Source of the DNA: a virus
Length of the DNA: 23,397 nucleotides
Reading direction: 5' to 3' (one strand)
Virus record (IMG/VR): IMGVR_UViG_3300020451_000676
Coordinates: 1-23,397 of that record
Numbering within the stretch: position 1 is the first letter of the stretch; each line of letters opens with the position of its first letter. Positions 3,001 to 20,258 of this stretch are shown here, in pieces. Under the pieces are notes generated by a model. That model did not search any database and was not told the DNA's origin. It was given only the letters and a program-made list of their open reading frames with translations. The position numbers and the translations under genes are program-made.

Positions 3001-4166
3001 AGAAGGGCGTTATTATGGAACTTGACCTAGCAGATCCTAATAACTTACCACTAGTTGGTGACGCAGTTGGATTTACAACTGATGCTGCTGGTATTGGTTC
3101 TGATAGAATTGGTGATGCTCCAAGGTACTATATTGTTAACGCTGTAACTGGATTCCAAACGAACTTCTCACAGAATCGTGGGTCTTCAGGTAACACTGCT
3201 CCTGTAACATATACAGGTCGCTTAACAATTACAATCTCTCCTGAGAAAGGTATTGCTACAAGTGATACACGTCTATCTGGAATTGCAACAGATGGTGTAG
3301 CACTTGCAGATGGTGGTTCATTCCTAGAGTTTAGAAGTAAATTCTCTAACGCACGTCTAACTGGACACGACTTCTTATCAGTTGGTGTTGGTAACAAGAT
3401 TGAAACTAATTACCCAGATGTGAACGAAGCAAACGTCGTTCAAGGTAATGAGACAACAACTTATGGACCAGGTAAGGTATTCTACGTATCTACTGACCAA
3501 GGTGGTAACTTCAGAGTTGGTGACTTGTTCGCAGTTAACCAGTTGACTGGTGCTGCAACATTGGATGCTTCCGCATTCAACCTATCTGGTTTGACAGAAC
3601 TAAGACTGGGTTCATTGGGTGGACAAATTGGTGAAGCGATCTCCGAGTTCTCATCTGATGAGACTATGAGTGGTAACTCCAACAATGCAACTCCAACTGA
3701 ATTCGCAGTTGTTGGTTACATAACTCGTGGAAACATGGGTACTGATCAGATGGTTCCTCCTAAGGGTACTACAGGTCAGCGTCCAGCAACTCCAATTCTT
3801 GGTGGTCTACGTTACAACACAACAATTGCTGCCTTTGAATCTTATAACGGTTCTGCTTGGGTTCCATTAGGTGGACTTCAGAACGTTGATGTCACATCTA
3901 CTTACAGTGCTTCATCATTCCAGTCAGTCTGGTGTAATACAAGTGGTGGTGGATTCACAGTTACTCTACCTGGATCTCCTAACAAGGGTGATACAATTAG
4001 GTTCTTCGACGTTGCTAAGACGTTCGATTCTAACAACCTAACGATTGGTAGAAACGGAAAACCAATTATGGGTGACGCTTCTGACATGACAGTTAACACT
4101 GAGGGTGCTGCATTTGATCTCGTATTCTACGACAACTCCTCAGGTTGGAGAGTCTTCACAGTCTAA
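6..4166 (+). CDS. Large phage fibre/baseplate-type structural protein with CBM-like repeats and beta-helix
   Basis: This 1386-residue protein is probably a virion fibre or baseplate component that contacts the host surface. The first 400 residues hold five repeats of a short beta module with the pattern W/Y...Y..(G/N)DVV.Y....Y (starting near residues 12, 65, 225, 278 and 343), similar to small carbohydrate-binding (CBM5/12-like) modules. A roughly 100-residue domain (about 112-212) interrupts them, and diverged relatives of it occur near 478-640. Near residue 445 a YYVDPEKGSD...TLKYAC segment looks like the start of a pectin-lyase-type right-handed beta-helix, and long Thr/Gly/Val-rich beta sequence follows. 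The last 75 residues form a compact cap shared with the protein at 18086-19984. Codon choice favours AAC and TTC, as in abundant virion proteins. A hairpin and late promoter follow. Virion role is inferred; the exact position in the particle is unknown. Confidence 0.8.
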   Translation: MADFRLGRLKFNWRGDWVASTAYVIDDIVKFGANTFVCTTNHTSTANETTWYTTDASNWQVHTEGIRNVGTYNSGTFYKVNDVLKYGNTQYRVTSGIGTTDPLLFAAATYTAQSVDYNPVTGVMTIVINGHGLSNGEEIKIADNSITLTCDKDGHATLHNYPRPTDPIHNQWLPISNVTANSFDVQVLATAPSTNVTAHLFVSAVEGSISRKVNTFNVTSYTSGFNGEGTWDAGIIYETGDVVSYAGNSYVAITTTTQGVIPPTELLSQWNFLSEGIDAVGLTTYEAGVTYYKGQLVQAGGNVYRHNATSSLNVHPTKGLTTGIGSTQVGIAKTAWILFNQGLRYDGTYSNSKEYYANDVVEYSSSSYVGIGSTGWKGIIPGTNADLWSALSLGDSNAVLTQPGDVLIRDNTSPVRLGAGQTGQTLGISTLGIPAWQTSGNSTRIYYVDPEKGSDTYNGSSPDMSFRTLKYACENASAITNISNFVYDNVTGLSTVTAPSHGILYPNVTVRLNSVKFNCYSGGRTYLVNAFQYDGGSGIGTVTVGAAMTGITAGDSVRLDNLKLTCPGYSGFTTDIYPDGTRPNGNNFTVGTVITPQSFNFNVGVSTFQHVYVSGGTVFVGLTTAYFPDTVLGSYFNINEVVDNNTFTVNVGTSTITHSYDSEGTVINLSPAVVRLSASEFVEQTPIVVPPFTSVVGSTLRSSMIRPASGLSGDGVTDNNRNTLFQLSDSTTIQGLNFKGMVGFQYDADNPAQLEYSSVRTGVGSTACGAYFAFNPVSPILNKSPYVKDCTAFGEPPTGTDARITGEGAGVGVLIDGGVHATGFRTMVFDAFTNVLSDGAGFVLDKGAGAEIVSSFTYYAKWGYYSGGGSRIRAVGGNNSYGDYAVISSGFNTTETPRSARLFGGRLDMTTGSITGTVALGNTMIGETSGAYATFINDQTSADRVYFKYYPGYGDPSIGGGGTGIGTTTFVKGEQITFIGAGTTGALQVQNVAGSVSGQKGVIMELDLADPNNLPLVGDAVGFTTDAAGIGSDRIGDAPRYYIVNAVTGFQTNFSQNRGSSGNTAPVTYTGRLTITISPEKGIATSDTRLSGIATDGVALADGGSFLEFRSKFSNARLTGHDFLSVGVGNKIETNYPDVNEANVVQGNETTTYGPGKVFYVSTDQGGNFRVGDLFAVNQLTGAATLDASAFNLSGLTELRLGSLGGQIGEAISEFSSDETMSGNSNNATPTEFAVVGYITRGNMGTDQMVPPKGTTGQRPATPILGGLRYNTTIAAFESYNGSAWVPLGGLQNVDVTSTYSASSFQSVWCNTSGGGFTVTLPGSPNKGDTIRFFDVAKTFDSNNLTIGRNGKPIMGDASDMTVNTEGAAFDLVFYDNSSGWRVFTV

Positions 4167-5030: not shown

Positions 5031-5045
5031 GGACTAGAAAACACA

Positions 5046-5840: not shown

Positions 5841-5851
5841 AGGACTAAAAA

Positions 5852-8080: not shown

Positions 8081-9250
8081 ATGAGATCGAAGGCGTTTTT
8101 TGTTAATGGTGGAGCTGGCAGAGTGATTTGTTCCATACCTGCGTTTGAAAAGTATGCAGAAACACACGATGATTTTGTCATTGTATGTGAGGGAGGGACA
8201 GACTTTTTTAAAGGTCATCCAAAATTAGATGGTAAAGTATATGATAACTGGCATAAGGGATTATTCCAAACACAATTAAAAGATAGGGATATAATATCTA
8301 CAGAACCATACAGAGTATGGGAATATTATAATCAGAAGTGTAGTCTTGCACAGGCATATGATATTCAAATCAATGAGTTAGATGAACCAAGAGAACTTCC
8401 AGTTCCTAGAATTGAACTAGCAAAGATGGAAGCTATCCAAGGTTTTAATGCAGTAGAGGAAGTAAGAAAGGGAACAGGTAAAGAAAAGATTTTGGTTGTT
8501 CAACCTTTTGGTAGGTCAGTTGAACAAGTTGGTGGTGATTTTATTGCTGATATTACTTCACGTAGTTTTCCTTTGAATGGTATTGTTGAAATTATTAATG
8601 AACTTAAAAAGGATTATGGTATCATTATAATGAGTGAGATTCATTTTCCACTTGAAGAGAATGAAGAGAAGGCAAAGATAAAAGTTGCAAGACCAGAGAT
8701 TCAGGACATGAGGACATGGGCAGGTGTTATTAATGCAGCAGATCACTTCTTAGGATGTGATAGTATGGGGCAGCATCTTGCTAAGGCATTTGGTAAGACT
8801 GCCACAGTTGTAACTGGATCAACATATCCAGTTAATATATCTTATCCTGACTGTAAGGATTTTGATATCATTGATGTAGGAGAGGGAAGGAGACAGTACT
8901 CACCTATTAGACTTACTACTGATGAAAGAGTTGATCGTTTTAATGATCAAGCAATGGAACTTGATAAGGATCAAATAAGATCTATACTTACTTCTGTTCG
9001 TAAGAGAATGGGTAAGTCAACTGCTTATACAAATTATAATAAGACTGCTGCCCCACAGCAGAACGATTGTTGTGCTCCAAAAATGGGTATGGGTGGAGGA
9101 AGTTCATCCCCTTCTTATGGTGTTCCAAAGGGAACTAATAAACCACAATTAAAACCATCATCAAGTAAAGGTTTTATGGCAGATGTTAAGAACGCATCTC
9201 AACAAAAGGTAGAAGGTCAAGTACAGGATATTTTAAAGAATCTTAAGTGA
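8081..9250 (+). CDS. Glycosyltransferase family 9-like (heptosyltransferase-type) protein
   Basis: This 389-residue GT-B fold protein would transfer a sugar, by family likely an ADP-heptose-derived one, to an acceptor. The N-terminus MRSKAFFVNGGAGRVICSIPAFEKYA resembles the GT9 start with its G-x-GD/GR turn and following helix. The C-terminal donor half has VVQPFGRSVEQ (about 138-148) and DHFLGCDSMGQHLAKAFGKTATVVTGSTYP (about 222-251). The latter is the GT9 pattern of D-S-x-x-x-H-L-A, small residue, G, then a hydrophobic strand ending in G-x-T-x-P. After residue 310 comes a non-family tail rich in Ser, Gly, Gln and Lys, including CC and MGMGGGSSS. GGAG at 8069-8072 lies 8 bases from the ATG. 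It opens the operon containing HldC-, HldA- and HAD-type genes, which supports a heptose donor; donor and acceptor are inferred. Confidence 0.65.
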   Translation: MRSKAFFVNGGAGRVICSIPAFEKYAETHDDFVIVCEGGTDFFKGHPKLDGKVYDNWHKGLFQTQLKDRDIISTEPYRVWEYYNQKCSLAQAYDIQINELDEPRELPVPRIELAKMEAIQGFNAVEEVRKGTGKEKILVVQPFGRSVEQVGGDFIADITSRSFPLNGIVEIINELKKDYGIIIMSEIHFPLEENEEKAKIKVARPEIQDMRTWAGVINAADHFLGCDSMGQHLAKAFGKTATVVTGSTYPVNISYPDCKDFDIIDVGEGRRQYSPIRLTTDERVDRFNDQAMELDKDQIRSILTSVRKRMGKSTAYTNYNKTAAPQQNDCCAPKMGMGGGSSSPSYGVPKGTNKPQLKPSSSKGFMADVKNASQQKVEGQVQDILKNLK

Positions 9251-9260
9251 GGTTTATATA

Positions 9261-11057
9261 ATGACTCAATGGATTGCAGCTCTTGCTAGAGGGCATAACT
9301 CTGGTGTATGTTTACTTAAAGATGGTGAGATAGTATTCTCTACTGAGGAAGAGAGATTTACTAGGAATAAGTATGATGGTGGACCATTGGCATCAATGGT
9401 TAAAATTTTAGATTATACTGACCATGTTGATTACCTTGTGATTGCTCACACTCAACCTCTAAGTGATGCTGGTAAGATAGATTTCTCTGGTGAGGATATC
9501 TATACTGGATTTGCTAGGAAGTTGGGTTTGATTAATCGTAAAGAGAATTGTTATGATCATCCTCAAGTTATAGATCTTAGTAGAACACATCATAAACTTC
9601 ATGCTGCTTGTGCATTTTATCGTTCTGGATTTGAATCAGCAGTAGCAGTTGTAGTAGATGGTGCAGGTACTTTTGTTCCAATGAACATTGGTGGTCAAGA
9701 ACCAGAGATGACATGGGAACTTGAGTCTATGTTTACTTGTGATTATCCATCAGAATTTAAAACAATCTATAAGCACATGGCAGGTAGAGGACCGTGGGGT
9801 TCTGCACATATACCTGAGATGGATAGTGAAGGTGAAGGTGAGGAAGGAACACATGAATTATTCTTAGATGAGAGTGCTGGTATTGTTAAAGCATACGAAG
9901 CAGTGACTCAGTATTGTGGTTGGTCTCCTATAGAAGCAGGTAAGACAATGGGATTGTTCCCATATGGCGAACCAACTGATAAGGTTCCAACGATTTATAC
10001 TGATGGTGGCGGGGGAGCATGGAAGACAAGTGATCGTAATGTAATAGTTCCTACATATCCAAATGGTGCTGTAGTTAATGAAGGTAGATATGAATATCTT
10101 AGGACACCTCAAGGTACTGAAGATCTAACTAAACTTCAGAACCGTAGAGATGTTGCCTATGCTATTCAAACAGAATCACAGCAGATGGTTCTTGATTTAA
10201 TTCGTAAGGCAGTTGAGATGACTGGCAATAAGAATGTAGTATTGTCTGGTGGATATGGATTAAATTGTGTTGCAAACTATTGGTATCTTGAACAGTTAAA
10301 GGGTGAAGGTATTAATTTGTTTGTTGAACCAGTAAGTAATGATGCTGGTACTGCTCTTGGAGCAGGATTATATGTACATCATCAAGTAAATGAAGACATG
10401 AAAATTAAAGAAAGGATTACAAATTTATACACTGGTCCTACATATAACTATACAACGGAAGAGATCTCTGAGTCTTGTCAAAAGTATGGTGCAACTAATG
10501 TAACTAGTGCATCTTATGATGATGTAGTTAAATTAATTACTAATAAGAATATAGTTGCAATGTTCCAAGGATCATCTGAAGCAGGTCCAAGAGCACTTGG
10601 TAATCGTTCTATCCTATATGATCCTCGTGATAAAGACGGTAAGGATTTTGTTAATAGTGTAAAGCATCGTGAATACTTCAGACCATTTGCAGGTTCTATT
10701 TTAAAAGAACATGTACATGAGTGGTTTGATCTTCGTGGTATGGATGACACTCCATTTATGATGTATGCTGTGAAGTGTCAACCAGGAATTGAAGAGAAGA
10801 TACCTTCTATCATTCATGTTGATGGTACTTGTCGTATACAAACTGTAACTGAAGACGTTAACGCACATTACTATGGACTCATCAAGGAATTCTTTGAACA
10901 GACTGGTTGCCCTATCATCTTTAATACTTCCTTTAATTTGGGTGGAGAACCTCTGGTTGAAACACTCGATGATGCGTTACGGACTCTTGCTAATAGTGAT
11001 ATTGAGTATCTATATCTTCCTGAGTACGATCTATTGATAGAGGTTAAGAATCAATGA
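9261..11057 (+). CDS. O-carbamoyltransferase, NodU/CmcH/TobZ family, full length
   Basis: This 598-residue enzyme would transfer a carbamoyl group from carbamoyl phosphate, via carbamoyl-adenylate, to a hydroxyl of a sugar or small molecule. The N-terminal Kae1-like domain shows ARGHNSG (9-15), EEERFTRNK (29-37), HHKLH (110-114, the metal-binding HxxxH), VVDGAG (131-136), GKTMGLFPYG, SGGYGLNCVANY (about 328-340) and EPVSNDAGTALGAG (about 355-368). The C-terminal YrdC-like domain has GSSEAGPRALGNRSIL (about 437-452), HREYFRPFA, HVDGTCRIQTV and NTSFNLGGEPLVET. All the expected blocks are present, so it should be active. It starts 10 bases after the GT9 stop and overlaps the next gene by ATGA, which implies translational coupling. 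The acceptor is probably the sugar made by this cluster (inference). Confidence 0.92.
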   Translation: MTQWIAALARGHNSGVCLLKDGEIVFSTEEERFTRNKYDGGPLASMVKILDYTDHVDYLVIAHTQPLSDAGKIDFSGEDIYTGFARKLGLINRKENCYDHPQVIDLSRTHHKLHAACAFYRSGFESAVAVVVDGAGTFVPMNIGGQEPEMTWELESMFTCDYPSEFKTIYKHMAGRGPWGSAHIPEMDSEGEGEEGTHELFLDESAGIVKAYEAVTQYCGWSPIEAGKTMGLFPYGEPTDKVPTIYTDGGGGAWKTSDRNVIVPTYPNGAVVNEGRYEYLRTPQGTEDLTKLQNRRDVAYAIQTESQQMVLDLIRKAVEMTGNKNVVLSGGYGLNCVANYWYLEQLKGEGINLFVEPVSNDAGTALGAGLYVHHQVNEDMKIKERITNLYTGPTYNYTTEEISESCQKYGATNVTSASYDDVVKLITNKNIVAMFQGSSEAGPRALGNRSILYDPRDKDGKDFVNSVKHREYFRPFAGSILKEHVHEWFDLRGMDDTPFMMYAVKCQPGIEEKIPSIIHVDGTCRIQTVTEDVNAHYYGLIKEFFEQTGCPIIFNTSFNLGGEPLVETLDDALRTLANSDIEYLYLPEYDLLIEVKNQ

Positions 11058-11707
11058 TTCATATTGATTGCACAAAAGAAGCGTTAAATTTTGCTAAGTA
11101 TGATCTAGCAGAGGATGAGATATTTGTTATTGATAATTTATTTCCTTGGTGGTTTGTAGAACATCTGGATCAAACAATCCTACATGGATTTGGATGGCAG
11201 TATGGATTATGTAGTAGTCATAAAAATAATCCAGATGGTACACCAGACATGGATTATGATAAGGGTACAGATTTAGAATCAGAAGTTCCTTGTTTTAAAC
11301 AATCAATCTACCCACCAAGATCGGAATCTGCACAGGACAGTGCATATCAAATGCTATACAAGGCAGTAACTAAAACTATTCCTTTTGACTTAGAGTTGGG
11401 TGAGATATTAGTTAATGGACAACAATATATACATGATACTCTTATACATACAGACTGCAATTGTGATAATGGACTTAGTTGGATCTACTATGTTAATAAA
11501 AGATGGGAAGATAAATGGGGTGGTCCAACAATAGTTGAATTTAATGGAGAGAATGTAGAGATACTTCCTTCGCCAGGAAGAATTGCTTTTTTTAAAGGTA
11601 ACATTCCACATAGAGGAGCACCACCAAATGGTGATCACTATCATGGACTAAGAGCAACTCTAGTCTATAAAACAATGCGTAAAAACCCTTTACCTGCTAG
11701 AACATGA
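11054..11707 (+). CDS. 2OG-Fe(II) oxygenase, prolyl-hydroxylase-like (second of four)
   Basis: This 217-residue protein carries a clear HxD...H...R iron and 2-oxoglutarate set: HTD (His132, Asp134), His186 in the GNIPHRG segment, and Arg200 in LRATLVYK. Between them LSWIYYVNKRW..KWGGPTIVEF and EILPSPGRIAFFKG follow the prolyl 4-hydroxylase-like core (hydrophobic strand, GG, E/T.F, then P..GR...F). It would hydroxylate a substrate or be adapted for another radical oxidation. It overlaps the carbamoyltransferase stop and the halogenase start by ATGA on each side, so the three products are probably made in fixed ratio and act on the same product. Substrate unknown. Confidence 0.8.
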   Translation: MIHIDCTKEALNFAKYDLAEDEIFVIDNLFPWWFVEHLDQTILHGFGWQYGLCSSHKNNPDGTPDMDYDKGTDLESEVPCFKQSIYPPRSESAQDSAYQMLYKAVTKTIPFDLELGEILVNGQQYIHDTLIHTDCNCDNGLSWIYYVNKRWEDKWGGPTIVEFNGENVEILPSPGRIAFFKGNIPHRGAPPNGDHYHGLRATLVYKTMRKNPLPART

Positions 11708-13230
11708 TTAATAAATTTGTAATCGTCGGAGGTGGAACCTCTGGATGGATAACTGCCATGTCTCTTTTTAGAGAGATGGAGAACTGTGAAATATATCTTA
11801 TTGATAAAGGTCAAAATGACTCTGTAGGTGTTGGAGAAGCAACTCTATTAGGTTTTGATGATTTTATGAGTGGATATTGTGATTTTGATGAGAAGGAATG
11901 GAAGAAAGCATTAGATGCAGTTCCTAAAGCAGGTATATTATTTCCAGGTTGGGGTAAAGCATCAGATCAAATTTGGCATCCATTTTATTTTCCACAGATT
12001 AGAGACGTACCTATATGGGATGCTTTGTCACACACTGATGAATCTATTCGTGAATATCTTCCTTTATATGATTCTAGTATGAAGAATGAAGTTGATCCTG
12101 GTGATATAGAATTCATGCAGGACGGTAAAAAGACAAGTTCATATGCATGGCATGTTGATTGTGGTAAGTTAGTTACTTATATTAAAAATTTTTTAGAGAC
12201 ACACTGCCCTACCTTCTCATATATTGAAGGTGAGGTTGGTAATATTAATAGATGGGAAGATGGTAGTATTCGTAGTTTAGTTTGTAAGCATGGTGAAGAA
12301 ATTGCTGGAGATGTTTTCTTTGATTGTAGTGGGTTTAAGAGTATACTTAAAGACCATAGAGACAAAGTAGATTTAAAGGGTCGTTTGTTTGTTGATACTG
12401 CTGTTGCTGGACACATACCATATTTAAATGAGGGTGATTGTAAATGTAATGGTGGTGATAATTCTGAGAAGCATCCTTATGTTTCATGTCCTGCTGTAGA
12501 TCATGGTTGGATATGGAAGATACCTTTACAGTCTAGGATAGGATCTGGCATGGTCTTTAATAGAAGTATTACAGATCCAGAAGAAGCAAAGGATTATTTT
12601 GTAGACTATTGGGATGGTAGAGTTGATAGAGATTCGTTATCTATAATTGACTGGTCACCTTATTATGATAAGAACATATGGGATAAGAATGTTATATCTA
12701 TTGGGTTAGCTGCTGGGTTCATTGAACCATTAGAGAGCACTGGTGTTGCTTTAATTATTGAAGGAGTGTGTAAAGCAACTGAGATATTAAAGGGAAGATA
12801 TTTTAATAACTTTGATATTGATATCTACAATGCATACCTAGTTAATTTGTTTGAGAACTGTGCTGACTTTGTATCTATGCATTATGATTTGAGTATACAT
12901 GAGTCTAAGTTTTGGGATTATGTGAGAGATACCTTTGAACCATCTGATTATCAAAGGTTGTTCAAAGATAATATTAATAGTCCTGCAACATCAATTGTTG
13001 AAGGTAAACCAGGAATGTTTGGTGGATCTAATTGGCTTTATTGGATGCTTCAGATGGGATATCCCACATCAGTTAAGTCGGAACCATCTCCTTTAGTTGG
13101 TATAAAATTAATTGATGACTATAAGAATCATATTAAAAAGATGTATGAGGAGATTCCTTCTGTACCATTGAATGAATATCTTAAGGGTGTCGGAAGTAAG
13201 TCAAAAATACGCATCGTTCCTCAAAATTAA
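11704..13230 (+). CDS. FAD-dependent halogenase (tryptophan-halogenase family)
   Basis: This 508-residue flavoprotein would use FADH2, O2 and halide to halogenate an electron-rich compound. The N-terminal Rossmann motif is VIVGGGTSGW (6-15), followed by GVGEAT (42-47). Lys75 in the VPKAGILFPGW segment aligns with the catalytic lysine (PrnA Lys79) that carries the haloamine/hypohalous acid. The diagnostic W-x-W-x-I-P motif is WIWKIP (269-274), and GLAAGFIEPLESTG (334-347) matches the active-site/FAD segment with the key Glu344. All halogenase hallmarks are present, so it is not merely a monooxygenase. Cyanophage Syn10 encodes a characterised member, VirX1, reported to iodinate diverse substrates; this gene is probably related. 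The sequence does not reveal the substrate or halide. No flavin reductase is encoded here, so FADH2 would come from the host. ATGA overlap upstream, TAATG downstream. Confidence 0.9.
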   Translation: MINKFVIVGGGTSGWITAMSLFREMENCEIYLIDKGQNDSVGVGEATLLGFDDFMSGYCDFDEKEWKKALDAVPKAGILFPGWGKASDQIWHPFYFPQIRDVPIWDALSHTDESIREYLPLYDSSMKNEVDPGDIEFMQDGKKTSSYAWHVDCGKLVTYIKNFLETHCPTFSYIEGEVGNINRWEDGSIRSLVCKHGEEIAGDVFFDCSGFKSILKDHRDKVDLKGRLFVDTAVAGHIPYLNEGDCKCNGGDNSEKHPYVSCPAVDHGWIWKIPLQSRIGSGMVFNRSITDPEEAKDYFVDYWDGRVDRDSLSIIDWSPYYDKNIWDKNVISIGLAAGFIEPLESTGVALIIEGVCKATEILKGRYFNNFDIDIYNAYLVNLFENCADFVSMHYDLSIHESKFWDYVRDTFEPSDYQRLFKDNINSPATSIVEGKPGMFGGSNWLYWMLQMGYPTSVKSEPSPLVGIKLIDDYKNHIKKMYEEIPSVPLNEYLKGVGSKSKIRIVPQN

Positions 13231-13757
13231 TGAGGAAAAATCTATTTGCTATACCTATCTTTGAAGATAAAGTTGATCTAACTAAAATTCACATAGAGAA
13301 TGGTGAGTACCATCCAACATGGGATAGTGAAGTACATAGTAGTTTTGGTTCTAATACCAATGTACCTGAAGAGACTTGGCAACATATAATGGATGTTGTT
13401 ACTAGGAATATTCAAACCATTGAGTGTTCTTATACAGATGCACGGATTGACAGTCTATGGAGGAACGTATATACTGAGACCGATTATCAAGAACTTCATA
13501 TACATCCACATTGTCAATGGAGTTTTATAATATATGAATCAGTAGAAGTCTCTAAGACTGTGCTACACAACCCTTCCTTTAAGGATATTCAGAATCATAT
13601 GTCTCATAGTGGGATACCAGACTTTCTTTTGGATTATAAACCACAGTTAGAGTCTGGTAGTATAATGATTTTTCCATCTTTTATTATGCATAGTGTTTTG
13701 CATGGTTCTAAAGGTACAACCATAGCAGGTAATGTTAAACTCTCTTATAAACCATGA
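13230..13757 (+). CDS. 2OG-Fe(II) oxygenase-like protein (third of four)
   Basis: This 175-residue protein resembles the small phage 2OG-FeII_Oxy_5-like oxygenases. HIHPH (residues 90-94) supplies the first iron ligand, followed by the strand WSFIIYESVE. Then comes SGSIMIFPSFIMHSV, in which His154 is the distal ligand. The position that normally carries an arginine for 2-oxoglutarate is Lys161 (GSKGTTIAGNV) in place of the family's R-x-S-x-x-x-N, an unusual feature. The start codon overlaps the halogenase stop (TAATG) and the stop overlaps the next start (ATGA). It is likely to tailor the same product as the halogenase; substrate unknown. Confidence 0.7.
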   Translation: MRKNLFAIPIFEDKVDLTKIHIENGEYHPTWDSEVHSSFGSNTNVPEETWQHIMDVVTRNIQTIECSYTDARIDSLWRNVYTETDYQELHIHPHCQWSFIIYESVEVSKTVLHNPSFKDIQNHMSHSGIPDFLLDYKPQLESGSIMIFPSFIMHSVLHGSKGTTIAGNVKLSYKP

Positions 13758-14179
13758 CCTTTTATTCTCCATCTACTAAAGTTTTTGTGAATGGTACGTT
13801 TGATTTAATTCATCGTGGTCATATTGAATTACTTAATTATGCTAAGTCATTAGGTGACAGAGTGTATGTTGGTATTGATAGTGATAGGCGGGTATCCGAA
13901 ATGAAGGGTAATTCTAGACCCATATATAATATGCAAGATAGGAAGTTCTTTCTTGAAAATCTAAAGGCAGTGCATAGAGTCGCAGTCTTTGATAATGATT
14001 CTCAGTTAGCAGCGATGGTTGAGTTTATTAAACCTCATTTTATGGTTGTTGGATCTGATTGGAAGGGTAAGTCAGTCATAGGATCTATGTCTGCTGCTAA
14101 GTTAGTATTCTTTGATAGGGTTGGTGATTATGCAACAACAAAAACAGTACAAGGTATTATTGATAGGAGAGACATGTGA
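13754..14179 (+). CDS. HldC/TagD-type nucleotidyltransferase (ADP-heptose synthase domain)
   Basis: This 141-residue enzyme has the cytidylyltransferase-like fold that joins a nucleotide to a sugar phosphate. It shows VNGTFDLIHRGH (12-23), with the nucleotide-binding HxGH at 20-23, LGDRVYVGIDSD (32-43), MKGNSRPI (49-56), NMQDRKFFLENLKAV, PHFMVVGSDWKGKSVIG (93-109) and YATTKTV (125-131). The order and the G(N/S)RP and DWKGKS-like segments favour the RfaE/HldE C-terminal domain, which makes ADP-D-glycero-beta-D-manno-heptose from heptose 1-phosphate. Length fits a stand-alone HldC. The kinase half, fused upstream in E. coli HldE, is here a separate gene immediately downstream. A glycerol-3-phosphate cytidylyltransferase (TagD) role remains possible; the adjacent HldA-type kinase and HldD make heptose more likely. 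Confidence 0.8.
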   Translation: MTFYSPSTKVFVNGTFDLIHRGHIELLNYAKSLGDRVYVGIDSDRRVSEMKGNSRPIYNMQDRKFFLENLKAVHRVAVFDNDSQLAAMVEFIKPHFMVVGSDWKGKSVIGSMSAAKLVFFDRVGDYATTKTVQGIIDRRDM

Positions 14180-14897
14180 AGATAGTTATATCTTTGGTAG
14201 TGTAGATAGGATAAGTCCAGAAGCACCAGTTCCTGTAGTAAAGCACGAGGAGACTCTTACTGCTCTTGGTATGTCTGAGAATGTTAAAAGGAATCTACAA
14301 GCATTTGGAGTTAGTGTAACTCATATTACTAATAAGAAGTTGATAAAGAAGAAGAGAGTAGTTGATAGTGCTAGTAAGCAACAGTTACTTAGGATTGATT
14401 ATGATGATCATGTTGATCCAATAAAAGCTGCTGAAGTTAAGATGGCATTCCTTTCGTCAGAGTTTGACGCTATTGTTATATCTGATTACGACAAGGGTTT
14501 TGTTACCCTAGAAAATCTCATGACGTTTTGCCAAAATTTTCCAGGTCCAGTCTTTATAGATACTAAGAAGAAGGATTTATTCTCTTGTCAGAATGTTATA
14601 TTTAAGATTAATCAAAGAGAAGCATCTACTTTAAGGGTTCAACCTTCTCCACAAAATTTAATTACAACTGCAGGAGGTCAGGGTGCATGGTATATGGATA
14701 AACTATATCCTAGTGAGAATGTAAATGTATTTGATGTAGTAGGTGCTGGTGATACATTCCTTGCTGCATTGTGTGCTGAATTTTTAAAAGAACATGACAT
14801 GGAAGCATCAATTAAGATAGCTAATAAAGCATCTGCTATTGCGGTACAGAACTATGGATGTTATACCTTAACACCAGAGGATATTCAAAGTTTATGA
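14130..14897 (+). CDS. PfkB kinase, HldA-type (heptose 7-phosphate kinase domain), shortened
   Basis: This 255-residue kinase resembles the N-terminal domain of RfaE/HldE, which phosphorylates D-glycero-D-manno-heptose 7-phosphate. Matches are LIGETCEDSYIFGSVDRISPEAPVPVVK (11-38, close to the RfaE start), QQLLRIDYDD (84-93), ISDYDKG (117-123), DTKKKD (144-149), KINQREA (159-165) and the PfkB signature VVGAGDTF (203-210) with catalytic Asp208. Two oddities are visible. The family GGAANVA segment is replaced by ALGMSENVK (45-53), and about 30 residues between VTHIT and KKK are missing, giving 255 rather than about 315 residues. I chose ATG 14130, not the more upstream ATG 14112, because homology begins just after it. 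It overlaps the nucleotidyltransferase gene by 50 bases, an HldE-like pair in reversed order and split. Sugar specificity may be altered. Confidence 0.78.
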   Translation: MQQQKQYKVLLIGETCEDSYIFGSVDRISPEAPVPVVKHEETLTALGMSENVKRNLQAFGVSVTHITNKKLIKKKRVVDSASKQQLLRIDYDDHVDPIKAAEVKMAFLSSEFDAIVISDYDKGFVTLENLMTFCQNFPGPVFIDTKKKDLFSCQNVIFKINQREASTLRVQPSPQNLITTAGGQGAWYMDKLYPSENVNVFDVVGAGDTFLAALCAEFLKEHDMEASIKIANKASAIAVQNYGCYTLTPEDIQSL

Positions 14898-15895
14898 AGA
14901 CACTTGGTATAAATATGACACACGATGCTTCAGTATGTCAGTGTGATGATGGTGACATTACTACATTCTTGGAAGAAGAACGTCTTACTGGTATAAAGCA
15001 TGATGAATTGCCAGTTAAGTCATTTCATAAAGTAGTTGATCCAGATTCTGTAATAGCATTTACTGGATTAGAATATGCAGATGATTTAGTAGGTGATAAG
15101 GTTAATAATTTTGTTAAATATGTTTTAGCAAAGTCTGAATATGGTGAGCGTAATGTTGATACTTATCTAGAACATCATTTATTACATGCTTATTGTGGTT
15201 TTTATAACTCTGGTTTTAGTAATGCATGTGTTGTAGTTGTTGATGGTATGGGTAACTACGTTGATAATGATCATCATGAGGTTGCAAGTATTTTTCATAT
15301 GACATACCCAACTAGAGCAAAGTTAGTTGGACAACAAGCATGTATTAGATATGACTCTGAGAAGTTAAAGGAAAGAGATGTCCATGACACTTGGCCAATT
15401 GGTATTGGTATGGCATACTCATCAATATCATCTTACCTTGGGTTTGGATCAATGGGTTCTGGTAAAGTAATGGGACTCTCTGCATATGGTGTTGATGATT
15501 CTAATATAAAACCATTTGTCTTAGAGGATGGAACGGTTAACTCTACATTATTCTATAGAACATATGATGGTGCATGTTTTATACCTTATGATTATCTACC
15601 TGATAAGTGGGATTTGAGAGTACAGGATGATAAATTTCAAAGGATTGCTAACCTAACATATAGATTGCAAAAGGACTTTGAACTTCAGATGATAGATACT
15701 ATATTAACTGGTTTAAAAATGACACAATCTAAGAATTTAATAGTGACAGGTGGATGTGCTTTAAATTGTGTTGCAAATTATGAGTACTTGAAATATCTTC
15801 CTGAAAATGTTAAAATGTATGTCGAACCTGTTAGTACTGATGCTGGTACTTCTATTGGGTTGGCAAAATATTTGTATCATACTAAAAACAAATGA
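14894..15895 (+). CDS. N-terminal half of a NodU/TobZ-type carbamoyltransferase (Kae1-like domain only)
   Basis: This 333-residue protein covers only the Kae1-like domain of the carbamoyltransferase family. It retains MTHDAS (8-13), EEERLTGIKHDELP (27-40), HHLLH (94-98) with the metal-binding HxxxH, VVDGMG (115-120), GKVMGLSAYG, TGGCALNCVANYEY and EPVSTDAGTSIG, and stops a few residues after this last block. The YrdC-like C-terminal domain that makes carbamoyl-adenylate is absent, and no remnant of it follows in any nearby frame; the next gene begins at the stop by ATGA overlap. The start at 14894 overlaps the kinase stop (ATGA). It may work with the C-terminal domain of another carbamoyltransferase, act as a pseudo-enzyme, or be a naturally split form. 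The clean junctions argue against random decay. Confidence 0.85.
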   Translation: MKTLGINMTHDASVCQCDDGDITTFLEEERLTGIKHDELPVKSFHKVVDPDSVIAFTGLEYADDLVGDKVNNFVKYVLAKSEYGERNVDTYLEHHLLHAYCGFYNSGFSNACVVVVDGMGNYVDNDHHEVASIFHMTYPTRAKLVGQQACIRYDSEKLKERDVHDTWPIGIGMAYSSISSYLGFGSMGSGKVMGLSAYGVDDSNIKPFVLEDGTVNSTLFYRTYDGACFIPYDYLPDKWDLRVQDDKFQRIANLTYRLQKDFELQMIDTILTGLKMTQSKNLIVTGGCALNCVANYEYLKYLPENVKMYVEPVSTDAGTSIGLAKYLYHTKNK

Positions 15896-16269
15896 GATAT
15901 TGTATAGATATTGACGGAACTATCTGCACACCTGGTGAGGGGTGTGGTACTTGTCAGTATGAAAATGCTACTCCTAAGAAGGATAGGATAGAAGTGGTCA
16001 ATAAATTATATGATGATGGACATTACATCATATACTTTACTGCTCGTGCAATGGGTAGGAATAAAGATAAACCTCTTGCAGAGGCAGCAGCAGTAGCAGA
16101 TGACTTGTTAAGACCTCTTACTCAAGCACAATTAAAGATGTGGGGTGCTAAATATCATGAATTACATATGGGCAAACCACATGCAGATATCTTTATAGAT
16201 GATAAAGCTTCTCCTGACCATGTGTTTTTTAAAGATACTCCTACCAAATCAGGTGGGACTTGTTGGTAA
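15892..16269 (+). CDS. Small HAD-superfamily phosphatase
   Basis: This 125-residue protein has the HAD motifs in order: DIDGT (Asp6, Asp8), FTAR (Thr50), GKPHAD (Lys95) and IDDKA (Asp103, Asp104). Its size, and the C-T-P-G-E-G-C-G-T-C loop after motif I, fit the small capsule/sugar-pathway HAD phosphatases. Between a kinase, a nucleotidyltransferase and an epimerase of heptose type, a natural role is removal of the 7-phosphate from heptose 1,7-bisphosphate, the GmhB step. GmhB itself is longer and has a different zinc loop, so this would be an analogue rather than a clear orthologue. A general phosphosugar or capsule phosphatase role is the alternative. ATGA overlap with the half carbamoyltransferase. 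Confidence 0.8.
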   Translation: MRYCIDIDGTICTPGEGCGTCQYENATPKKDRIEVVNKLYDDGHYIIYFTARAMGRNKDKPLAEAAAVADDLLRPLTQAQLKMWGAKYHELHMGKPHADIFIDDKASPDHVFFKDTPTKSGGTCW

Positions 16270-16272
16270 CCA

Positions 16273-16632
16273 ATGAATACAGATCAACCAATTAAAATAG
16301 TAAACAAAGGGTGGGGACATGAGAAATGGATTGTCAACACTGAAGAGTATTGTGGTAAATTATTATTTTTTGAGGGTGGTAAGAGATGTTCTTGGCATTA
16401 CCACAAGTTAAAAGATGAGACTTTTTATCTACAGTCTGGTAGGATTCTATTATTCTATGGTAAGACTGATGATTTATCTAAGGCAGAGACTAAGATACTA
16501 GAACCTGGAGATACTTTTCATATATTTCGTGGACTAAGACACCAGATGATTGCTATGGAGCACTCTGAATTGTTTGAGTTCTCCACACAGCATTTTGATA
16601 CGGATAGTTATAGAATAATGGTAGGTGATTAG
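16273..16632 (+). CDS. Cupin-fold protein, sugar-isomerase/epimerase-like
   Basis: This 119-residue single cupin has the metal-binding set HxH (WHYH, His42 and His44), Glu49, Gly56, then LEPGDTFHIFRGLRHQM with His90. The opening GWGHEKWIVNTEEYCGKLLFF resembles the cupin domains of type II mannose-6-phosphate isomerase/ManC and of D-lyxose-type isomerases. In this operon it could isomerise a phosphosugar. The GmhA step (sedoheptulose 7-phosphate to heptose 7-phosphate) is the only heptose step without a recognised enzyme here, but linking it to this cupin is speculation. It starts 3 bases after the HAD stop and ends directly against the next ATG, so it belongs to the same operon. Confidence 0.75.
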   Translation: MNTDQPIKIVNKGWGHEKWIVNTEEYCGKLLFFEGGKRCSWHYHKLKDETFYLQSGRILLFYGKTDDLSKAETKILEPGDTFHIFRGLRHQMIAMEHSELFEFSTQHFDTDSYRIMVGD

Positions 16633-17244
16633 ATGAACCTCGTAGATTGCATTGCTGAGTATGACAATATTCTCAGTGATGAGATGTGTGATGTCATGAT
16701 TGATTGGTTCAATGCTAATGAAGAATTACAAGATGATGGTGCTATTGGAACTATAGAGGGGGAAGGTGTAGTTAATAATAAGATAAAAAAATCAAGACAA
16801 AGTTATCCTCATCCAGAAGATTCAATATCTGATTTAATGACTGAGGTAATTAAAAAGACTTACAGAGAATACAAGAAGGATCATTTTGTACCAGAAGATT
16901 CATCTATGATAGCGGTAAGAGATTATTCTATTAGAGTTTATGATAAAAATGACGGACACTTCTTACGTCATATGGATCAAGCAGGTGTTGCAAGTAGACT
17001 CTTTGCTATTATAATGTACCTTAATACAGTTGATCAGGGTGGTGAGACTGAGTTCTCAGATCATAATATTAAAATTAAACCAGAGAAGGGTAAGGTATTA
17101 ATATTTCCATGCAATTTTATGTTCTATCATCAAGGTAACACACCTATCTCTGGGGATAAATGGATTGCTACTGCTTTTATTAACCTTGTAATTCCTACTG
17201 CTACTAATACTCCTAAGAAGGAACCAGTTAAGATAAGTTATTAA
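16633..17244 (+). CDS. Prolyl 4-hydroxylase-like 2OG-Fe(II) oxygenase (fourth of four)
   Basis: This 203-residue protein is the closest of the four to prolyl 4-hydroxylases. It shows IRVYDKNDGHFLRHMDQ with HxD at His113/Asp115, then FAIIMYLNTVDQGGETEF (124-141, the YLN...GGET.F core), IKPEKGKVLIFPCNFMFYHQGNTPISGDKWIATAFI with His166, and Lys176 as the 2-oxoglutarate ligand. T4-like cyanophages often carry such genes. Substrates could be a protein side chain, for instance in the fibre proteins, or a sugar/metabolite made by the operon. TAG-ATG abutment links it to the cupin gene. Its last 17 bases overlap the end of hldD on the opposite strand. Confidence 0.88.
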   Translation: MNLVDCIAEYDNILSDEMCDVMIDWFNANEELQDDGAIGTIEGEGVVNNKIKKSRQSYPHPEDSISDLMTEVIKKTYREYKKDHFVPEDSSMIAVRDYSIRVYDKNDGHFLRHMDQAGVASRLFAIIMYLNTVDQGGETEFSDHNIKIKPEKGKVLIFPCNFMFYHQGNTPISGDKWIATAFINLVIPTATNTPKKEPVKISY

Positions 17245-18019
17245 TATATTCTTCAACAGTAGTAAAATTATAATTACCCCACTCTTTTTTAGCACGAGTA
17301 TATTTTTGATACTTTCCTTCTAGATGTTTTGGGAATGGGATATATTCTATCTCTGCATTATATTTCTTAGCAATTATTTCTCCAACTTTTTGGAAGCTAA
17401 TAGGATTACTTGTTCCTAGATCATAGATTCCAGATGGTTTATCATTGTTTAAGACGTGATGTATGATGTCTTTCACACAAATAAAATCTCTAATAAAATT
17501 CTCAGATCCTTCAAACAGTTTTAGTTTACCTGTCTCTTTAACTTGTTCTGTAAATGTTTGTATCGGACTTGCTTGATTACCTTTATGGTCTTCACCTTGC
17601 CCATATACATTGAAGTATCTAAACCCCTGAACTAATTTAAACTCATCTATATGATCTTGAACCCAGTAGTCTGTGATTACTTTGGTTATTGCGTAGTAGT
17701 TGAGTGGATTGATTACGTTAAGACTCTTACCATACACTGATGCAGAGGATGCATACTTGACTGGTATCTTATATTTGATTGCGTTGTTTAATAACCACTC
17801 TGTAAATGCAACGTTTGTGTTGATGAGTAATTCAAGATCTGTACAGGTTGTAGAAGAGATAGCACCTTGATGTATTATTAGTGTTACTTTCTCCCATTCA
17901 GTAAATTTTTTAATAAAGTCTTGACAATTATCCTTCTCAACTTCTATTACTTCTTCATTCCTTAATGCTTTGAGGAAGTTTTGTCCAATGAATCCTTTTG
18001 AACCTGTAAGTATTATCAT
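17228..18019 (-). CDS. hldD: ADP-L-glycero-D-manno-heptose 6-epimerase
   Basis: This 263-residue short-chain dehydrogenase/epimerase converts ADP-D-glycero- to ADP-L-glycero-beta-D-manno-heptose. The NAD(P) motif is GSKGFIG (6-12), SSASVYG (91-97) precedes the catalytic YAITK (Tyr109, Lys113), and the C-terminal half has several blocks specific to HldD/RfaD: GFRYFNVYG...HKG..AS (132-151), KLFEGSENFIRDF (167-179), SGIYDLGT, SFQKVGEI and IEYIPFPKHLEGKYQ. These match E. coli HldD as I recall it far better than other epimerases. It is about 45 residues shorter than E. coli HldD, mostly in the N-terminal half. AAAAGAAG lies just before the ATG at 18019. It is convergent with, and overlaps, the oxygenase gene at 16633-17244, and is the only heptose gene on the minus strand. 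Confidence 0.9.
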   Translation of the reverse strand: MIILTGSKGFIGQNFLKALRNEEVIEVEKDNCQDFIKKFTEWEKVTLIIHQGAISSTTCTDLELLINTNVAFTEWLLNNAIKYKIPVKYASSASVYGKSLNVINPLNYYAITKVITDYWVQDHIDEFKLVQGFRYFNVYGQGEDHKGNQASPIQTFTEQVKETGKLKLFEGSENFIRDFICVKDIIHHVLNNDKPSGIYDLGTSNPISFQKVGEIIAKKYNAEIEYIPFPKHLEGKYQKYTRAKKEWGNYNFTTVEEYINNLS

Positions 18020-18085: not shown

Positions 18086-19984
18086 ATGTCATTTGGAAAA
18101 TTAGCAAATGTTAAGCCAGAGACGGCTAAGTTAAATCAATTACTATATACTGCTCCAGCGGATACGTTGACTCAAGGTAAAGTATATGTCACGAACCAAA
18201 CTCCTTCGACGATTTATGTTAGGGTTGGACTCGCCACTGCAGGTGGATTAGATTCTTTTAAAGCGAATGGATATGTAACATTTGATCAGGAAATAAAAGT
18301 CGGAGAGTATTTTGAATCCGATCCTCTTTATTTTGCTGATGGAGATAGTGTAGTCATCAGATCTACAGATACAAGTTCTGCGTTTACATTTATTGGAGAA
18401 GAGAGTCCTAATATAGGTGGTGCAGGATTCCTAGCGCAAGGATTTTCTACTGCAGATAATGGAGCTGATTTACTATTTGAATTCCCAACAGGTAAGAGTT
18501 TTAGGGGTAATTTATTTGTTTGTAACAAGTCTTCTGGTGATAGTAAGGTTCGTGTAGGTCTTGGTACAACTGCGACTGACTATCTAGAATATAATTATGA
18601 GGTAGAGCGTAACTCAACCCATGTTAGGTCTGATATATCAGCAAAACCTGGTGATCAGATGTATGTTCGTGCTGACTCGATTCGTGAGACTGAGCATACT
18701 ATACAAGGTATAACATACAATCCTAATACAGGATTTATGACCATTCAGATCAATGCACATAAATTTGTTGATACTGATAGGGTATATCTTAAAGGTGAGT
18801 CTGTTGTATTAACCTGTGCTAAGGATGATTATCTTACAAAGCATTACTATCCAAGATCGACTGACCCAATCTATAATAAGTGGATTCCCATTTATAATGT
18901 TACAACTAACACGTTTGATATTCAGGTGTTGGATGTTATTCCATCTACTAACGTAACTGATCATAAATTTATATCAGCACATACTAATGGACTGAGAAGG
19001 ACTACTGGTGCTGTAAACTTTGTTCTTAGTGGATATTATGTAGACTATCAACACTTCTACGGTTCTGTTGGTATTGGATCTACATTAACTGCGACCAATG
19101 CTTACATTAAAGAGGGTCTTGGTATTGGTGTTACTTATCCAGGTTCTTATGGACTTAAAGTTATTGGTGACACATCACTTTCTAAGTTAGATATTACTGA
19201 TGACCTTCATGTACAAGGTAATGTACAGACTGTTGGTGTATCTACCTTTGCTGGTACTGTAACCTTCCAAGGTGGTACTGTAAACACTGGTGTTGGTACA
19301 GAGAACGCAGTTGTTCTTGATGCTAACGTTAACTCAAACATTACTCCAGGTGTTGCTAACTCCTTTGACTTAGGTCAAGACTCTAAGAGGTGGAGGTATG
19401 TATATTATGCTGATACACTTAGAGGTAATCAGATTGATTTAAGTAATGGTACTACTGGTATAGCAACTATTGGTGTTGGTTTTGGTGCTACTACAACTCA
19501 AGCAATCATTGGTGCTGCTAACACAGCAGTCATGGCATTTGGTGACATTGGTATTAATGGAGACCTTGTTCTTAAAGGACAGATTGGTATTGGTACAACA
19601 ACTGTAAATCAATTAGCATATGATGCCACTACAGATGAACTACAAGTCTTTAACAAGTCTCTTAATAGAAATGTACCTATACATGGTGTAGATACTAACT
19701 ATTATACTGTAACAAGTAACACTACTGTTACATCTTGGTCAACAGTTATGGTAGATACCCTCGGTGGTACATTTACTGTTACTTTACCAGCATCTCCAGT
19801 ACAAGGAGATAGGATTAGGTTTATAGATTATAAGAAGAACTTTGATACTGCTGCTCTAACGATTGGTAGAAATGGTAAACCAATCATGGGTGATGGTGCA
19901 GATATGACAGTTAATACTGAAGGTGCTGCCTTTGAGTTAATGTTCTGGGACAATACCTCTGGTTGGTGCTTGATGAATGTATAA
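18086..19984 (+). CDS. Second phage fibre/virion structural protein sharing domains with the large fibre
   Basis: This 632-residue protein begins with two related beta domains (about 1-110 and 118-205), each with an RVGL-type strand (YVRVGLATA, KVRVGLGTT) and a phrase on a D-S/D-Q plus V.RS/VRADS turn. Residues about 205-305 are the domain also found at 112-212 of the large fibre (TGFMTIQINAH...LTCAKD...YPRSTDPIYNKWIPI...FDIQVL). Then come fibre-type repeats (GVSTFAGTVTFQGG, NSFDLGQDSKRWRYVYYAD, GATTTQAIIGAAN). The last roughly 75 residues are the same cap as in the large fibre (IGRNGKPIMG, NTEGAAFELMFWDN.SGW). It has its own late promoter. Probably a virion protein acting with the large fibre or sharing its attachment site (inference). 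Confidence 0.8.
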   Translation: MSFGKLANVKPETAKLNQLLYTAPADTLTQGKVYVTNQTPSTIYVRVGLATAGGLDSFKANGYVTFDQEIKVGEYFESDPLYFADGDSVVIRSTDTSSAFTFIGEESPNIGGAGFLAQGFSTADNGADLLFEFPTGKSFRGNLFVCNKSSGDSKVRVGLGTTATDYLEYNYEVERNSTHVRSDISAKPGDQMYVRADSIRETEHTIQGITYNPNTGFMTIQINAHKFVDTDRVYLKGESVVLTCAKDDYLTKHYYPRSTDPIYNKWIPIYNVTTNTFDIQVLDVIPSTNVTDHKFISAHTNGLRRTTGAVNFVLSGYYVDYQHFYGSVGIGSTLTATNAYIKEGLGIGVTYPGSYGLKVIGDTSLSKLDITDDLHVQGNVQTVGVSTFAGTVTFQGGTVNTGVGTENAVVLDANVNSNITPGVANSFDLGQDSKRWRYVYYADTLRGNQIDLSNGTTGIATIGVGFGATTTQAIIGAANTAVMAFGDIGINGDLVLKGQIGIGTTTVNQLAYDATTDELQVFNKSLNRNVPIHGVDTNYYTVTSNTTVTSWSTVMVDTLGGTFTVTLPASPVQGDRIRFIDYKKNFDTAALTIGRNGKPIMGDGADMTVNTEGAAFELMFWDNTSGWCLMNV

Positions 19985-20012: not shown

Positions 20013-20258
20013 ATGAATATGAACTTTGCCGTTTACTCTAAAGATGGATGCCCATATTGTGATAAAATAGTACAACTTCTTGAGTTAGGTGACCTCAAGC
20101 ATGTTGTGTATAAATTAGATCAACATTTTGATAAGAAGGCATTCTATCAAGAGTTTGGTGATGGTTCTACCTTCCCACAAGTTGTAGTTGATGGTAAGAA
20201 ACTTGGTGGTTGTGCTTCTGCTGCCAACTATTTACAAGAGAATAAACTTATAGTCTAG
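20013..20258 (+). CDS. Glutaredoxin
   Basis: This 81-residue thiol-disulfide oxidoreductase has the CPYC active site (13-16), the cis-proline TFPQVVVDG motif (53-61) and the glutathione-binding KKLGGC segment (62-67). T4 (NrdC) and cyanophages encode similar glutaredoxins that reduce ribonucleotide reductase or proteins with reactive thiols. A second ATG two codons in (20019) is an equally possible start, and no strong ribosome site is seen. TATAAATG at 19980-19987 is one base off the late promoter core and may drive it. Its stop overlaps the minus-strand bilin reductase by 11 bases. An additional link to folding of the Cys-rich virion proteins is speculative. Confidence 0.92.
   Translation: MNMNFAVYSKDGCPYCDKIVQLLELGDLKHVVYKLDQHFDKKAFYQEFGDGSTFPQVVVDGKKLGGCASAANYLQENKLIV

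Follow-up and report, generated by a model that had tools for sequence, protein, structure and literature searches.

Heptose biosynthesis requires an isomerase that converts sedoheptulose 7-phosphate to D-glycero-D-manno-heptose 7-phosphate, which is GmhA in the standard bacterial pathway. Genes related to this pathway have been noted in phages. In P-SSM2, S-SM2, and S-SSM7, the T4-GCs 304, 305, 307, and 308 co-occur as "LPS genes" (for lipopolysaccharide), and the passages of Sullivan et al. 2010 devoted to them suggest a functional linkage and leave it as a question whether they have a function or are "stuffer DNA" (PMC3037559). The announcement of SynMITS9220M01 lists heptose LPS genes (PMC7378029), a pelagimyophage paper mentions rfaE, and PMC9238414, in the part that concerns these genes, does no more than include gmhA in a list of phage auxiliary genes. 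On the host side, the LPS of Synechococcus strains WH8102 and CC9311 is described in the relevant part of a review as being without heptose and 3-deoxy-D-manno-octulosonic acid (KDO) (PMC4515613). Here we describe a gene block in IMG/VR record IMGVR_UViG_3300020451_000676, a 23.4-kb linear virus record (referred to in its whole length as the window) that is kin to the T4-like cyanophages. The block probably encodes a self-contained ADP-heptose pathway in which a small cupin is proposed to replace GmhA, with all functions being read from sequence and predicted structure.

In the proposed pathway, the cupin would turn host Calvin-cycle sedoheptulose 7-phosphate into D-glycero-D-manno-heptose 7-phosphate, an HldA-like kinase would yield the 1,7-bisphosphate, a small HAD phosphatase would take off the 7-phosphate in place of GmhB, an HldC-like enzyme would yield ADP-D,D-heptose, and an HldD-like enzyme would epimerize this to ADP-L,D-heptose. 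The roles of HldA, HldC, and HldD are those of their nearest families, whereas those of the cupin and the HAD protein are inferred. The original prediction had named the HldA, HldC, HldD, and HAD genes together with a glycosyltransferase gene at 8081, and all of these open reading frames are present and intact. It had the pathway start only from heptose 7-phosphate, with GmhA supplied by the host, and missed the cupin gene at 16273 to 16632, the candidate for the first step, with which the phage would not have to rely on a host GmhA. The genes of the proposed pathway are the following.

13754..14179, plus strand: HldC-like heptose 1-phosphate adenylyltransferase (TIGR02199, below cut-off; HxGH motif)
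14130..14897, plus strand: HldA-like heptose 7-phosphate kinase (TIGR02198, below cut-off; PHROG 8133, E 5e-89)
15892..16269, plus strand: small HAD phosphatase, EcbF/BcbF type (TIGR01689; profile match to PDB 9iqw)
16273..16632, plus strand: cupin, 119 amino acids, proposed sedoheptulose 7-phosphate isomerase (co-occurrence; D-lyxose isomerase fold and residues)
17228..18019, minus strand: HldD-like ADP-heptose 6-epimerase (TIGR02197, below cut-off; PDB 1eq2, E 2e-42)

The probable heptose cassette and its enzymes

The gene set is found among tail and virion genes, with a GT9-like gene and a carbamoyltransferase, in P-SSM2, Sf-FS3, S-CAM1, S-SSM7, and S-CAM3, and inside polysaccharide-type clusters with glycosyltransferases in S-SM2, P-TIM68, and Sf-CH8. 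Locus scans of the best 80 of 536, of 568, of 470, and of 100 matches were condensed into groups by merging loci that share DNA, and L001 was not counted, nor were the reference loci from E. coli. Among 133 such nonredundant groups, HldA was present in 116, and these contained HldC (115), the cupin (111), the HAD phosphatase (104), HldD (76), and the GT9 gene (53). The cupin and the HAD gene are thus nearly as constant as HldC, with HldD being optional, and the cupin is the sole gene without an assigned function that nearly always accompanies the heptose set. Because the set recurs both in named complete cyanophages and in these locus groups, its composition is not due to chance.

For the kinase, adenylyltransferase, and epimerase, the heptose families of NCBIfam were ahead of rival families by 43 to 176 bits, though with scores below the curated cut-offs. 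The HldC-like protein matched TIGR02199 (rfaE_dom_II) with 105.7 bits (E 1.8e-30; next nonheptose family, 62.3), the HldA-like protein matched TIGR02198 (rfaE_dom_I) with 152.4 bits (E 1.5e-44; next, 55.0), and the HldD-like protein matched TIGR02197 (heptose_epim) with 210.0 bits (E 4.6e-62; next, 34.4). The HldC-like protein has kept the HxGH motif and is 30.1% identical to the C-terminal domain of E. coli HldE. The HldA-like protein, 26.5% identical to the N-terminal domain of HldE, has kept RISPEAPVPVV and the PfkB motif GAGD, which we take to be functional motifs of the kinase; it is short, having about 26 residues fewer than HldE after the GMxxN motif. Its reading frame has an ATG at 14130, and the earliest start codon of the open frame is a TTG at 14112. 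The match of the HldD-like protein, already judged strong in the original prediction, extends to 40.3% identity with E. coli HldD, and Y109 and K146, the equivalents of E. coli Tyr140 and Lys178 (presumably the catalytic residues), are invariant in 8/8 phage copies. The heptose reading is therefore the best one for these three enzymes and stands as likely on the sequence comparisons.

The small HAD protein had been assigned to the GmhB type, and that assignment holds for its context and not for its ancestry. Its sole NCBIfam match was to TIGR01689 (EcbF-BcbF; E 2.3e-4), and its profile matched PDB 9iqw, titled "Capsule biosynthesis protein" (E 3.1e-18), as well as 1xpj. Residues D6, D8, T10, T50, K95, and D104 were found in 10/10 aligned phage copies, with one D103E. 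The GmhB family TIGR00213 was matched neither in the window nor in eight complete phages, and the protein was rejected as a GmhB orthologue. Among 23 records, TIGR00213 had two matches, both weak and below the cut-off, in AG-345-O18 and G012. In 78 open reading frames from 60 groups, a relative of the HAD protein and an HldC domain form one fusion protein, a link to the nucleotidyl step. Of the 12 HldA groups without the HAD gene, some of which are short contigs, three contained a classical GmhB (L152, L154, and L165) and one contained an NT5C-type HAD protein (L164). GmhB stood beside the HAD gene in 3/104 groups, which, like the match in AG-345-O18, counts against a simple replacement. The association between GmhB and HAD presence gave a Fisher value of 0.014, an optimistic figure in that related phages are treated as independent. 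The protein is proposed to be a minimal EcbF/BcbF-type phosphatase whose genomic context fits the GmhB step.

In public records, orthologues of the HAD protein are named "phosphoheptose isomerase" and those of the cupin "cysteine dioxygenase" (L002:12410-13091, L004:10767-11427, L005:13385-14099, and L008:8773-9430). The first name was unsupported, with no SIS match in the HAD proteins of the window and of seven phage orthologues and no SIS_2 domain anywhere in the genomes that carry those orthologues (0/11 records). The second was not supported by the profile searches.

A cupin as the proposed isomerase

The GmhA profile matched 1/26 records, a divergent copy in SynMITS9220M01, and was absent from the window, nine other complete cyanophages, and 15 large viral contigs; all nine of these cyanophages carry the cupin. 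In a wider set of 50 records, SIS_2 was found once, as a weak match below the cut-off. Further viral loci were gathered with three additional seeds, comprising GmhA seeds and the HddA kinase of phage Bellamy (HddA1), giving 258 groups in total, with thresholds and grouping that differ from those of the 133-group counts. In the 118 groups with HldA only, the cupin was the sole isomerase candidate in 112, GmhA in none; five had neither and one had both (L048, whose second isomerase is a distant SIS-type protein). In the 108 groups with HddA only, GmhA was alone in 99, the cupin was alone in 7, and both were present in 2, namely, SynMITS9220M01, with its pair of HddA genes, and L350, which is truncated at its start. 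All eight groups with both kinases contained both isomerases, and the 24 groups without a visible kinase contained the cupin (15) or GmhA (9). Where the isomerase had no part in the selection, the cupin was present in 64/69 HldA-seeded groups and 6/6 HddA1-seeded groups, and GmhA was present in 0/69 and 0/6, respectively. The five HldA groups with neither gene include two cut in the HAD gene (L108 and L145), one 4.2-kb contig (L122), and two with no cupin beside HldA (L119 and L143), as is also the case in L157.

Counted by locus, with redundancy, the ratio of kinases to isomerases was 1:1 in 296 of the 321 kinase-bearing loci, 2:2 in 11, 1:2 in 5, 2:1 in 1, and 1:0 in 8; it was 0:1 in 32 others. 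In Bellamy, the cupin sits between HddA (E 7.2e-83) and HddC (E 4.2e-17), and it is likewise found between HddA and HddC in SynMITS9220M01. Two heptose modules stand side by side in L013, L181, L280, L284, L334, and L353, and loci with two modules have the order HldA-HldC-cupin followed by HddA-GmhA-[HAD-HldC fusion]. The product of a Bellamy gene annotated as "phosphatase" (L191:15-1085) has a LacAB_rpiB isomerase domain toward its C terminus.

The predicted structure of the cupin (predicted local distance difference test [pLDDT], 96.5) has D-lyxose isomerases at ranks 1 to 5 and 7 of 1952 in Foldseek. In VIA, the alignment with D-lyxose isomerase 7nzo (Z 14.4; root mean square deviation, 2.7; 114 residues) had 28% identity, the highest among 50 rows. 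With a profile from the small cupin alignment (A5), an unnamed cupin came first and was followed by L-ribose isomerase (3.2e-4) and D-lyxose isomerase (7.4e-4); with the large alignment (A7), D-lyxose isomerase was third (2.2e-6) among generic cupins. The Pfam family Lyx_isomer was found in 67/69 cupins at E values up to 1 (best, 5e-4), behind Cupin_2 (69) and Cupin_1 (68). D-Lyxose, L-ribose, and D-glycero-D-manno-heptose share the same C2/C3 configuration, so an aldose-ketose isomerase reaction of this type fits manno-heptose. The D-lyxose isomerase of Thermofilum coordinates its metal through H75, H77, E88, and H143, and activity is lost when the equivalents of K86, E156, and D163 are mutated, according to the parts of PMC8378251 that describe the active site. 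Through the alignment with 2y0o, metal ligands H42, H44, E49, and H90 and residues K47, E102, and D109 of the phage cupin correspond to the Thermofilum set. H42 is conserved in 68 of the 69 cupins, H44, K47, E49, H90, and E102 in all 69, and D109 in 55, with all seven present in 54. The exchange of the cupin for GmhA between loci, together with these isomerase residues, leads us to propose that the cupin replaces GmhA and would let the phage start from Calvin-cycle sedoheptulose 7-phosphate.

A scan of the bacterial database GTDB for the cupin gave 12 loci (L172 to L183), all on contigs of metagenome-assembled genomes (MAGs) labeled Planctomycetaceae, Euryarchaeota, Halobacteriovorax, and others, and several of these contigs carry the phage cassette as well. 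L179 and L183 have a phage tail neighborhood, and L176 covers the same range as the IMG/VR virus of L086. Some of these contigs are likely misbinned phage DNA, and a bacterial origin of the cupin was not supported by the 12 loci.

Several observations weigh against this assignment of the cupin and against heptose as the product. The Z values of Pac13 (15.4; 11% identity), phosphomannose isomerase (14.9; 22%), CapF, and KdgF tie with that of the D-lyxose isomerase, and under the large profile the scores of MncA, oxalate decarboxylases, and quercetinase are about equal to that of D-lyxose isomerase. Position 109, the counterpart of D163, is E in 7 and V in 7 of the 69 cupins, with D111 invariant, and the Thermofilum enzyme is described as specific for free D-lyxose, which is not a phosphate. 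Besides L048, ten groups contain the cupin together with a GmhA-like gene, so that the cupin is no simple substitute there; nine of these carry a pair of kinase genes, and in the tenth (L350) the sequence is truncated immediately upstream of the cupin. Given the functional diversity of cupins, the similar scores of generic ones, and loci such as L013 and L181, where cupin and GmhA genes are found side by side, the cupin might act later, as an epimerase or mutarotase on heptose phosphate or ADP-heptose, with host GmhA supplying heptose 7-phosphate. This is an unlikely role: epimerases of the RmlC type require a 4-keto substrate, and the Pfam scans, which took in 19 window open reading frames, recognized no sugar dehydratase, whereas the cupin and GmhA change places between HddA modules and the cupin has the metal-binding and catalytic residues of an aldose-ketose isomerase. 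Synechococcus elongatus, a freshwater control and the only cyanobacterial genome scanned for the GmhA family TIGR00441, had no match. As for the product, the scores of HldC (105.7 against a cut-off of 181.5), HldA (152.4 against 345), and HldD (210.0 against 274.6) would allow a close relative of heptose as the substrate; TIGR02197 scores in four other phage HldD copies, 184.6 to 209.9, are also below the cut-off (E. coli, 457.8), and the deletion in the kinase is of a phage type. A related, nonheptose ADP-sugar is nonetheless quite improbable in view of the conserved HldD signature residues, the large lead of the heptose families, and the pairing of the cupin with HddA and HddC as well.

The GT9 enzyme and the possible acceptor

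Heptose from the ADP-heptose pathway would need a transferase, for which the window offers one candidate among genes flanked on both sides by tail genes. The remaining features of the region are the following.

6..4166, plus strand: tail fiber protein, flank (DNA match to the S-SSM7 tail fiber gene region)
4248-5030, 5046-5840, and 5852-6634, plus strand: three Gly/Cys-rich tail-type proteins, candidate acceptors (PF21722 Gly_rich_2, E 2.4e-6 for the first)
8081..9250, plus strand: GT9-type glycosyltransferase, heptosyltransferase fold (predicted fold; low-confidence C-terminal tail from about residue 320)
9261..11057, plus strand: NodU/TobZ-type O-carbamoyltransferase, full length (PF02543 and PF16861)
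11054..11707, plus strand: 2-oxoglutarate (2OG)-Fe(II) oxygenase (PF13640, E 4.6e-6)
11704..13230, plus strand: flavin-dependent, tryptophan-type halogenase (PF04820, E 3.2e-82; PDB PrnA, E 1.3e-53; VirX1, E 7e-36)
13230..13757, plus strand: 2OG-Fe(II) oxygenase (PF13759, E 4.9e-8)
14858..15895, plus strand: carbamoyltransferase, N-terminal domain only, 345 amino acids (PF02543 only)
16633..17244, plus strand: 2OG-Fe(II) oxygenase (PF13640, E 4.7e-13)
18086..19984, plus strand: tail fiber-like protein, flank (phmmer relative of the P-SSM2 tail fiber gene, in the same place)

The protein encoded at 8081 had no Pfam match and no meaningful sequence match in the PDB. Its AlphaFold2 model (pLDDT, 85) was closest in VIA to the GT9 structure 3tov (Z 22.2), followed by TibC (19.9), WaaF (19.8), a plant NDH subunit (18.9), and WaaC (18.2), with the best GT-B enzyme outside GT9 at 11.7. 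Pfam Glyco_transf_9 (PF01075) was found in 31/47 homologues at E values up to 1 (best, 1.8e-7). The predicted fold is thus that of GT9 (heptosyltransferase), which bears out the original prediction. Carbamoyltransferases of the 9261..11057 type are present in 49/53 GT9 groups and in 6/63 HldA groups without GT9, and in most relatives this gene follows the GT9 gene. Gly-rich tail proteins are present in 36/53 GT9 groups and in 0/63 HldA groups without GT9 (Fisher, 2.5e-17), and the GT9 gene and the Gly-rich protein occur in the same 5/10 complete phages (P-SSM2, Sf-FS3, S-CAM1, S-SSM7, and S-CAM3; Fisher, 0.008); both tests are optimistic, since related phages are counted as independent, and part of the match may stem from common descent and location.

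The GT9-fold enzyme would then move the heptose, most likely onto a Gly/Cys-rich phage tail protein, and the carbamoyltransferases may decorate it, as suggested by their neighborhood. The reading in full, that a cyanophage ADP-heptose pathway with a phage-specific cupin isomerase unrelated to GmhA serves, with GT9 and carbamoyltransferases, to place (carbamoylated) heptose, a sugar reportedly absent in the host, on the phage's own Gly/Cys-rich tail proteins, is a tentative one that we regard as possible rather than probable. For the virion as the heptose acceptor, taken by itself, the balance is about even; virion glycosylation is likelier than a change of host LPS because the heptose cassette adjoins tail genes.

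The heptose might instead end in an envelope polysaccharide of the host (LPS or O-antigen) and alter the surface of the infected cell, for example, against superinfection. Core genes of the set do stand in the multi-glycosyltransferase polysaccharide clusters of S-SM2, P-TIM68, and Sf-CH8, the cupin stands in clusters of the same type in Bellamy and SynMITS9220M01, and the authors of the published accounts, in their passages on such genes, took them as LPS genes. A host destination seems somewhat unlikely for a window of this type, in which a single GT9 enzyme lies between tail genes and strictly co-occurs with the Gly-rich tail proteins; no known ligase, flippase, or polymerase was recognized by Pfam in the 19 open reading frames scanned. 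The original prediction that the phage would introduce a sugar its host may not make stands as far as the heptose-free LPS of the two Synechococcus strains is concerned, but delivery into the host was unsupported. A count against the virion reading comes from HATAAATA (3 occurrences; 8.1 expected) and CTAAATA (3; 6.4 expected), which we take to be late-phage promoter motifs; both are rarer than expected in the window, so late expression found no support in them. In some other phages, carbamoyltransferases and glycosyltransferases modify DNA, and heptose or carbamoyl groups could by that analogy modify phage DNA bases instead of protein. The position among tail genes, the finding of no base-modifying synthase in the 19 open reading frames scanned, and a fold nearest to GT9, TibC, and WaaF make this very improbable.

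The tandem Gly-rich trio (4248 to 6634) is unusually Cys-rich, with CCC and CxC runs. Short carbamoyltransferases like that at 14858..15895 are also present in Sf-FS3 and S-SSM7, and the window copy, limited to the N-terminal domain, may depend for carbamoyl activation on the corresponding domain of the full-length copy at 9261 or of another at 20982. The halogenase (11704 to 13230) lies in a possible tail modification cluster and has relatives in 19/53 GT9 groups. A ferredoxin-dependent bilin reductase gene (20248 to 20943, minus strand; PF05996, E 1.7e-31) adjoins a glutaredoxin gene.

Comparison with described systems

If the proposal is correct, heptose biosynthesis, which most Gram-negative bacteria carry out, has a second, unrelated enzyme for its first step. 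The proposal would also account for a P-SSM2-type gene set whose use has been open, correct the public names "phosphoheptose isomerase" and "cysteine dioxygenase," and open virion glycosylation in marine phages to direct tests. Cyanophage LPS and heptose genes are already in print in outline (PMC3037559 and PMC7378029); what is new is the proposed replacement of GmhA by the cupin and of GmhB by the HAD protein, as well as the setting of the GT9 gene beside tail genes. Among the open-licence papers searched, none dealt with a cupin as a sedoheptulose 7-phosphate isomerase or with heptose in virions. T4-GCs 304, 305, 307, and 308 of Sullivan et al. 2010 correspond to the HldC, HldA, cupin, and HldD genes described here, whereas the sections of that paper on these clusters leave the cupin, the HAD phosphatase, and the GT9 enzyme without a function and do not assign the two genomic settings.

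The phage kinase, adenylyltransferase, and epimerase are nearest to the same families as in the standard bacterial heptose pathway, but the cassette lacks GmhA and GmhB, has the cupin and the EcbF-type HAD protein instead, and encodes a shorter kinase and epimerase. D-Lyxose and L-ribose isomerases have the cupin barrel, the H-x-H...K-x-E...H site, and the second Glu found in the phage cupin and act on aldoses with the C2/C3 configuration of manno-heptose; in contrast, the phage protein has 119 amino acids, is without their insertions, and presumably acts on the 7-phosphate. The autotransporter heptosyltransferase TibC, whose PDB titles name iron-binding cysteines and a dodecamer, shares with WaaC, WaaF, and the predicted structure of the 8081 protein the GT-B fold of the GT9 superfamily, whereas for the 8081 protein the PDB yielded no detectable sequence match, and its gene adjoins phage tail genes rather than lying in an operon for an autotransporter or for the LPS core. 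Caulobacter phage Cr30 and other phages, like the phage described here, encode a heptose kinase with its isomerase, but in their module these are an HddA kinase and GmhA, with no cupin.

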